Positions 27,832 to 28,078 of a stretch of DNA of 64,000 nt are shown one piece after another; the first letter of the stretch is position 1, and each line of letters starts with the position of its first letter. The translations under genes were made by a program, and so were the position numbers. Source of the stretch: an uncultured Alphaproteobacteria bacterium (GTDB lineage: Bacteria > Pseudomonadota > Alphaproteobacteria > HIMB59 > GCA-002718135); contig CACIBE010000003.1 in NCBI GenBank assembly GCA_902584805.1, positions 1-64,000 on the forward strand. Reading direction: 5' to 3'. Below the pieces are notes generated by a model that saw nothing but the letters and a program-made list of their open reading frames with translations, was not told the DNA's origin and ran no database searches.

Positions 27832-27851
27832 ATCTATCTCCTTACTTCAAC

Positions 27852-27878
27852 AAAAGGGTATGCTATCCAGCGTTACCC
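27852..27878 (-). terminator. Terminator-like hairpin between riboswitches and glnA, probable expression platform
   Basis: On the minus strand, GGGTA pairs with TACCC and an inner GCT pairs with AGC around loop GGAT; TTTTGTT follows. It lies about 40 bases after the second aptamer and 20 bases before the glnA start, the right place for a regulated intrinsic terminator. The T-run is short, so control of ribosome access is the alternative. Confidence 0.5.
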
Positions 27879-27916
27879 GGTTAAATCATGCTCTAGTTAT
27901 GAAATCTGCTTTTGAT

Positions 27917-27972
27917 GCGCGTTCCTTCAGCTTATCGCTTACTTCCGACCTATATAAAATAGGTTGAACGAT
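27917..27972 (-). ncRNA. Glutamine riboswitch aptamer (glnA RNA motif), copy 2, promoter-distal
   Basis: Minus-strand RNA with the three-way-junction pattern of the glnA motif: ATCGTTCA at the 5' side of P1, a P2 hairpin ACCTAT/ATAGGT, the conserved CGGAAGTA, a P3 hairpin AGC/GCT, then CTGAAGGAACG closing P1. It differs from copy 1 in P2 and P3 but keeps base pairing, which is covariation supporting a real structure. The motif binds L-glutamine in characterised examples. Confidence 0.88.
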
Positions 27973-27985
27973 TTATAACTTTTGC

Positions 27986-28037
27986 ATGCGTTCCTTCGGC
28001 ACAATGCCTACTTCCGACTCTAAAAGAGTTGAACGAT
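27986..28037 (-). ncRNA. Glutamine riboswitch aptamer (glnA RNA motif), copy 1, promoter-proximal
   Basis: Minus-strand RNA: ATCGTTCA (P1 5' side), P2 hairpin ACTC/GAGT with loop TTTTA, the conserved TCGGAAGTAGGC, P3 hairpin GGC/GCC with loop ATTGT, and GAAGGAACGC closing P1. It starts about 40 bases after the glnB stop and is separated from copy 2 by 13 bases. Two aptamers in tandem usually sharpen the response to ligand. Confidence 0.9.
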
Positions 28038-28078
28038 TATTGGTTAATTACTAGGTTTTATATAAAAGTAAAGAAAAA

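Follow-up and report, generated by a model that had tools for sequence, protein, structure and literature searches.

Streamlined ocean bacteria sense nitrogen without the P-II/GlnD machinery known from textbooks; how they do so is an open question. The GlnD/P-II/GlnE cascade reads glutamine and adjusts glutamine synthetase (GS) and AmtB. Here, we analyzed a locus at which an RNA may do the same job: the space between glnB (P-II) and glnA (GS) on the minus strand of a 64,000-nt stretch of contig CACIBE010000003.1, which we call the window and whose host is probably a streamlined marine alphaproteobacterium of the order HIMB59. This order has two families, HIMB59 and GCA002718135 (PMC10734472). 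A sequence-only reading had placed two tandem glutamine riboswitch aptamers between these genes. We find that both are such aptamers, that the tandem module precedes four loci in this genome, and that GlnD and GlnE go undetected in its family. We consider it probable that these loci form a tandem regulon on a shared platform and that RNA glutamine sensing has here replaced the cascade of GlnD, P-II uridylylation, and GlnE on which most Proteobacteria rely.

Tandem glutamine aptamers at four loci

A covariance-model search with Rfam RF01739, whose gathering score is 35 bits, bears out both aptamers. Aptamer 1 (28037-27985, minus strand) scores 64.3 bits (E 6.1e-12) and aptamer 2 (27972-27916, minus strand) 65.8 bits (E 2.4e-12), both matches being full length (model positions 1-53 of 53) with zero non-standard pairs marked. 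The motifs CGTTCA, CGGAAGTA, and GAAGGAACG, to which the sequence-only reading had pointed, are found in both segments, and its remark that P2 and P3 still pair despite their different sequences is correct: P2 is ACTCT/AGAGT in one aptamer and ACCTAT/ATAGGT in the other, and P3 is GGCA/TGCC and AGC/GCT. The flanking open reading frames (ORFs) also have the identities it gave them, with Pfam matches to P-II and glutamine synthetase (Table 1), and published accounts are in line with its statement that the glnA motif is known best from cyanobacteria and marine metagenomes (PMC2864571 and PMC6316151).

The genome to which the window belongs (1.37 Mb, 85% complete) contains eight aptamers, which form four tandem pairs. 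One pair precedes glnA, another an ATP-grasp operon on contig C9, and the remaining two precede each of two ammonium transporter genes (amtB1 and amtB2) on contig C1. The three genes of the C9 operon encode, according to Pfam, a circularly permuted ATP-grasp (DUF404), an alpha-E, and a transglutaminase-like protein. Since the same tandem module precedes glnA, amtB1, amtB2, and the ATP-grasp operon, these loci constitute a regulon; the first three are nitrogen-metabolism genes, and the operon is without an established nitrogen role here.

We then compared this module with its relatives. A motif search over 170 overlapping loci gave 179 stretches (167 doublets, 3 triplets, and 9 singles), in which neighboring aptamers are spaced by 6-25 nt. 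Removal of repeats left 150 units, and a filter of 16-19 nt on the last gap retained 109, termed f1-type after the window's own family (f1); the other 41 units (other spacings, singles) were excluded from the leader counts. Named by BLAST to the proteins of the window's genome, the 109 units precede GlnA (32), DUF404 (30), AmtB1 (25), and AmtB2 (19), with 3 left without a class, and they include a few from genomes titled SAR116 (e.g., L040 and L089). In this set, selected for gaps of 16-19 nt, every gap is 17 or 18 nt. P1 has 5/5 pairs in both aptamers of 109/109 units, P2 comes in 15 kinds in aptamer 1 and 14 in aptamer 2, and P3 reaches 2 bp or more in all 109 units for aptamer 1 and in 107 for aptamer 2; P1 and the core letters being fixed by the search pattern, only P2 and P3 are informative. 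Because P1 is 5/5 and P2 comes in 15 and 14 kinds over these units, both aptamers look maintained. A chance or degenerate second aptamer was ruled out by the RF01739 scores together with pairing helices over the 109 units. Two genomes of the genus also have a single glutamine aptamer before a third, distant ammonium transporter (L009 and L037).

Protein sensors in the sister families and beyond

Since the GlnD/P-II/GlnE cascade adjusts the same proteins, we looked for its components in 151 genomes, 91 from f1 (the window's included), 52 from the sister family of the same order (f2), and 8 others of the class. The riboswitch was present in 89/91 f1 genomes, 0/52 f2 genomes, and 1/8 others. The protein sensors showed the reverse, with GlnD in 0/91, 42/52, and 6/8 and GlnE in 0/91, 40/52, and 5/8, respectively (one further weak f2 match to GlnE, in G132, sits inside its GlnD). 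Of the f1 genomes, G015 and G068 have no riboswitch; both are also without a close glnA (best identity 34% and 38%) and are uninformative on the glnA locus. Incomplete assembly is an unlikely cause of the missing GlnD and GlnE because f2, which is also incomplete, gives GlnD in 42/52 and because the five f1 genomes that are at least 90% complete (G054, G055, G061, G070, and G082) have the riboswitch (5/5) and neither GlnD (0/5) nor GlnE (0/5). NtrC was above cut-off in 4 of the 151 genomes, none of them f1; the window's own genome retains adjacent ntrY-like, ntrX-like, and trkA-like genes, named from sequence and gene order.

P-II and GS were compared as well. P-II was found in 67/91 f1 genomes, as a single copy in each, and in 50/52 f2 genomes, mostly in two copies. 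Its T-loop is rewritten in 60 of 71 loci, from HTELYRGAEYVVDFLP to STGGIDPNDGYDDEFLA or a variant (21 kinds), and YRGAEY is found in the remaining 11, which belong to f2 or to other genomes of the class (L177, L178, and L214); the 71 loci overlap, some within the same genome, and do not stand for 71 genomes. A tyrosine is kept at the modified position, which we take to be Tyr51, in 59 of the 60 rewritten T-loops, L194 having Phe. At the adenylylation region of GS, 27 f1-type loci where the pattern matched have NLYAAS, and 9 other loci (eight f2 plus L202) have NLYDLPPEE. The glnB-glnA locus itself can be compared between the families. In the f2 genome G091 (one contig of 1,410,127 bp), glnB and glnA are 44 bp apart, glnE comes directly after, and tig-clpP-clpX (our assignments) adjoins. 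In the window, the glnB-glnA gap is 247 bp and contains the riboswitch, tig-clpP-clpX-lon is close by, and GlnE has no match in the genome.

Beyond the family, the riboswitch is rare class-wide, in 6/385 genomes (two f1 and four of family f10). The f10 units L160, L162, and L163 are single aptamers before the same ATP-grasp gene, and in the f10 genome G150, GlnD was matched as well, with a score short of the curated cut-off. When named GTDB genomes were scanned for the pattern, at least 119 stretches were obtained, and among the matches listed (80 titles) are uncultured Alphaproteobacteria, SAR116, SAR86, SAR92, and Porticoccaceae. In genomes outside f1 with tandem glutamine aptamers, GlnD was found in 10/24 and not found in 14 (25 chosen loci; completeness not given), which rules out the riboswitch as a universal marker of GlnD loss. 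At ten non-f1 loci (L065, L069, L104, L113, L114, L131, L134, L144, L152, and L153), the aptamers precede a distant GS-like gene (~25% identity to the window GlnA) and have a different linker and downstream hairpin; GlnD was found in 0/6 of the genomes of L065, L069, L104, L114, L131, and L134, which are possibly one lineage and whose completeness is not given.

Two side observations concern the wider spread of the module. The tandem pattern is also present in 119 stretches of IMG/VR viral contigs (L231 onwards), and phages may be carriers of the module between marine lineages. In L058 (Porticoccaceae), L103 (SAR92), and L121, tandem aptamers are followed, ~60 nt past aptamer 2, by a small ORF of ~60 aa whose product has three YRG motifs, one of which, LYRGAEY, is identical to the P-II T-loop motif. 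The L058 protein, the one of which the sequence was searched, has a weak Pfam match to DUF4278 (E 1.2e-4, below cut-off), a domain that corresponds to the N-terminal region of IF17, a GS inactivating factor of cyanobacteria (PMC6316151). This small YRG protein may be a GS inhibitor mimicking P-II.

A putative shared platform and competing explanations

Judged by sequence, a single expression platform serves both aptamers because the gap of 17-18 nt leaves no room for a platform between them. Such a pair may act as the cooperative or sharper switch that the sequence-only reading suggested. The linker, CAUGC-AA(AA)-GUUAU, is complementary to an element, AUA(A/G)C-UA(G)A-GCAUG, which is present in 108/109 units (the sequence of L098 stops before it), and both are nearly invariant across units. 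Of 4000 random 19-mers from the window, 4-19 gave duplexes at least as good as the linker:element duplexes of nine leaders. We refer to this suggestive long-range helix as P0. Folding was computed for 71 distinct leaders, after three without a recognised start and those without a gene class were dropped. When the aptamers were forced, P0 had a mean probability of 0.94 for AmtB1, 0.81 for AmtB2, 0.97 for DUF404, and 0.38 for GlnA, the last being split between ~0.8 for most window-type leaders and values near 0 for several divergent ones. Covariation was considered as support for P0 and set aside, the variation being too small.

In the mechanism that we propose, glutamine binding would fold both aptamers, and folding would settle a contest between P0 and other pairings of the conserved element near the hairpin and the translation start. 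In amtB2, a possible pairing of the element with the 3' arm of the hairpin looks good by eye. P0 would abut P1 of aptamer 1 and enclose aptamer 2. High glutamine would then, most likely and on physiological grounds, lower the synthesis of GlnA and AmtB.

How the platform might act depends on what lies 3' of the element. All four leader classes retain a hairpin whose sequence varies, and the segment 3' of the element is stabler than dinucleotide shuffles (mean z of -2.51 for GlnA, -1.95 for AmtB1, -2.40 for AmtB2, and -2.27 for DUF404). The sequence-only reading saw a terminator-like hairpin here, and in the window a hairpin followed by TTTT does exist; as a general mechanism, termination did not hold up. 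A U-run (five or more U among the 8 bases that follow) is found in 14/60 distinct leaders (GlnA 8/17, AmtB1 2/12, AmtB2 4/14, and DUF404 0/17), or in 17 if the GlnA leaders L023, L076, and L101 are added, whose U-run the hairpin program took for part of the stem, such that GlnA could be 11/17. A terminator was thus rejected as the regulon-wide mechanism because the U-run is unconserved, and may serve glnA alone. Over the regulon, a translational platform is more likely than a terminator-based one. In DUF404 leaders (L001, L021, and relatives), the hairpin loop contains AAAGG and a short upstream ORF of ~17-20 codons, counted by eye, begins 3' of the hairpin, its stop adjoining or overlapping the main start; translational coupling is possible.

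The coordinates of the locus are collected in Table 1. According to the sequence-only reading, the switch lies inside an operon. This is uncertain because a terminator-like stem ends glnB and TTTAC[TA] follows its stop. The terminator-like stem (28097-28081, minus strand), at the 3' end of glnB and followed by a T-run, is the sole stem in the terminator scan, for which shuffled sequence gave 0.6 stems on average; its letters are nearly invariant in 27 distinct relatives, and its T-run is not conserved. The TTTAC[TA] motif, at 28072-28067 (minus strand) in the window and in all 27 distinct glnA leaders listed, may be the -35 of a glnA-only promoter, and the switch may thus be transcribed separately from glnB. 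No good -10 was seen by eye in the space between glnB and aptamer 1, and the scan gave no promoter-like site there. In the same genome, amtB2 has TTGATA-16-TATAAG directly 5' of aptamer 1 (by eye). DUF404 and amtB1 leaders (e.g., L001 and L004) share an inverted repeat, ATGCA-N5-TGCAT, seen by eye ~55-75 nt 5' of aptamer 1; it may be the operator of a nitrogen regulator, for example NtrX.

Table 1. Features of the glnB-glnA locus in the window
Feature	Position	Strand	Basis and remarks
glnB, P-II protein, 113 aa	28079..28420	-	ORF; Pfam P-II E 2.2e-33; rewritten T-loop STGGIDPNDGYDDEFLA vs HTELYRGAEYVVDFLP
Glutamine aptamer 1, P1 to P1	27989..28035	-	RF01739 64.3 bits; P1 5/5, P2 5 bp, P3 4 bp
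Inter-aptamer linker CATGCAAAAGTTATAAAT, 18 nt	27971..27988	-	Linker comparison over 109 units
Proposed P0 5' strand	CAUGC 27988-27984, GUUAU 27979-27975	-	Duplex matched or beaten by 9/4000 random 19-mers
Glutamine aptamer 2, P1 to P1	27920..27970	-	RF01739 65.8 bits; P1 5/5, P2 6 bp, P3 3 bp
Conserved 15-nt element CATAACTAGAGCATG	27887..27901	-	3' of aptamer 2; kept in relatives
Proposed P0 3' strand	AUAAC 27900-27896, GCAUG 27891-27887	-	Within conserved element
Leader hairpin GGGTAACGCTGGATAGCATACCC, dG -7.3	27856..27878	-	Hairpin kept in relatives, sequence varies by gene
TTTT 3' of hairpin	27852..27855	-	Terminator-like here; not conserved over regulon
Shine-Dalgarno TAAGGAG of glnA	27838..27844	-	Read directly in sequence
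glnA, type I glutamine synthetase, 476 aa	26401..27831	-	Pfam Gln-synt_C E 1.6e-138; NLYAAS, not NLYDLPPEE, at adenylylation region

Several other ways for the pair to work have to be weighed. Intrinsic termination, in which glutamine-bound aptamers would let the hairpin at 27878-27852 terminate transcription before glnA, is unlikely. The TTTT in the window, the U-runs of about half of the GlnA leaders, and the better-than-shuffled folding of the segments after the element speak for it; it is opposed by the rarity of U-runs over all leaders and their absence from DUF404, by the absence of the hairpin from the terminator-scan list, and by our finding by eye no antiterminator common to the classes. 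That the aptamers are two independent, redundant riboswitches, each with its own platform, is quite improbable, even though a review counts glutamine doublets as pseudo-cooperative systems (PMC9481103). The gap of 18 nt here, 17-18 nt in the 109 units and 6-25 nt over all grouped loci, leaves no room for such platforms, and a near-invariant linker and element are what one shared device is expected to have. A translational ON switch like that of cyanobacterial gifB, in which bound aptamers would favor P0 and free the glnA start codon from the element (UUUCAUAAC), is rather unlikely. In the free glnA ensemble, the element does pair with the start codon, and forcing the aptamers in 18 glnA leaders raised mean P0 from 0.12 to 0.38 and mean start-codon opening from 0.08 to 0.29; the start of the upstream ORF opened from 0.34 to 0.56 in 19 DUF404 leaders, and tested cyanobacterial glutamine riboswitches activate (PMC6316151). 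Opening of the Shine-Dalgarno sequence, by contrast, fell from 0.73 to 0.64 in glnA and from 0.30 to 0.15 in amtB2, amtB1 was nearly unchanged, and positive feedback of glutamine on GS and ammonium uptake would make poor physiological sense. Element:start complementarity is borderline for glnA, with 4/72 background start regions equalling or surpassing it, and does not exceed the background for amtB1 (34/72), amtB2 (25/72), and DUF404 (55 and 12/72); this background was taken from the window, L038, and L039 and may include the tested genes' own starts, with starts picked by our own rule. An anti-start or anti-Shine-Dalgarno role of the element, attractive by eye and from glnA folding, was dropped on this failure in three of four gene classes. 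The sequence-only statement that glutamine shuts off glnA thus amounts to a physiological guess, the structural results lacking that sign and glnA folding being weakly opposite. We lean toward glutamine lowering glnA and amtB expression (OFF) for physiological reasons, whereas the folding estimates for glnA point weakly to ON. If OFF is correct, the sign would be reversed here because the tested cyanobacterial members are ON switches.

Besides the ON direction of the glnA start codon and the element:start comparison, further points weigh against the reading that we favor, a tandem regulon on a shared platform replacing the protein cascade. Changes in the P0 strands that keep the pairing are one-sided, none is compensated on the other strand, and four glnA linkers (GTTTG) lose two of the P0 pairs. 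One f1 genus is represented, such that the exchange counts as one lineage and not 91 events, and tandem aptamers coexist with GlnD in 10/24 other-clade genomes, so that the riboswitch alone does not imply GlnD loss. The last point also speaks for the view that loss of GlnD and GlnE and gain of the riboswitch are unrelated events in a streamlined genome, as does the fact that streamlining strips regulators at large; to our knowledge, SAR11 is without P-II and NtrBC. We nevertheless find coincidence rather improbable. The exchange follows the family boundary and hits the same glnB-glnA locus and the P-II T-loop, and GlnD was also found in none of the six non-f1 genomes tested with aptamers before the GS-like gene, which may be one lineage. 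Replacement of the cascade by the tandem regulon would account for these findings, and the chances seem to us evenly balanced for a fuller version in which a family of open-ocean heterotrophs gave up the protein sensor for an RNA one, P0-tied cooperative pairs at four loci act directly on the synthesis of GS and the ammonium transporters, and the rewritten P-II does something else.

Relation to known systems and significance

Parts of this picture have precedents. The glnA RNAs were named with their nitrogen-metabolism genes, and occasional tandem copies were noted (Weinberg 2010, PMC2864571); a 2022 review counts 157 glutamine doublets and 4 triplets, which it calls pseudo-cooperative (PMC9481103). 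According to a 2018 review, glutamine riboswitches are restricted to cyanobacteria, and their associations with GS, PII, and amt genes to environmental sequences (PMC6316151). A 2022 phage paper reports a glutamine riboswitch carried by an OM43 phage and mentions further ones from one Pelagibacter and one Prochlorococcus phage (PMC9004378). Two AEGEAN-169/HIMB59 genome papers use neither the word "riboswitch" nor the word "glutamine" in their main texts (PMC10308909 and PMC10734472), and the literature searched, which mostly did not cover subscription papers, holds no report of glutamine riboswitches in this order or of their exchange for GlnD.

The module resembles four known systems and differs from each. 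It is like type 1 RF01739 RNAs in sequence and structure along the whole model, with each copy scoring far over the cut-off, and in its association with glnA, P-II, and ammonium transporter genes (PMC2864571); the tested cyanobacterial members, however, activate genes such as gifB, and the target in the window is GS itself. As in tandem glutamine doublets, two successive aptamers precede one gene (PMC9481103), but the review describes complete riboswitches in series, whereas the conserved linker and element here imply a shared platform. In that respect, the module is closer to the tandem glycine riboswitch, with two close homologous aptamers and one expression platform (PMC9481103), which has another aptamer and ligand; cooperativity is only putative here. 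The GlnD/P-II/GlnE cascade does the same job by protein modification, in contrast to an RNA acting on synthesis. What is known is, therefore, the tandem riboswitch in kind, and what is new is its host and regulon, the module with a shared platform, and the lack of GlnD and GlnE that coincides with it.

These findings give metagenomic glnA riboswitches a host and argue against a cyanobacteria-only view. They make the replacement of a protein cascade by riboswitches testable with simple reporters and offer a compact two-aptamer device for studies of RNA cooperativity. For the biology of these streamlined bacteria, they mean that, between sister families and at the same glnB-glnA locus, the protein sensor is missing where the RNA sensor is present.
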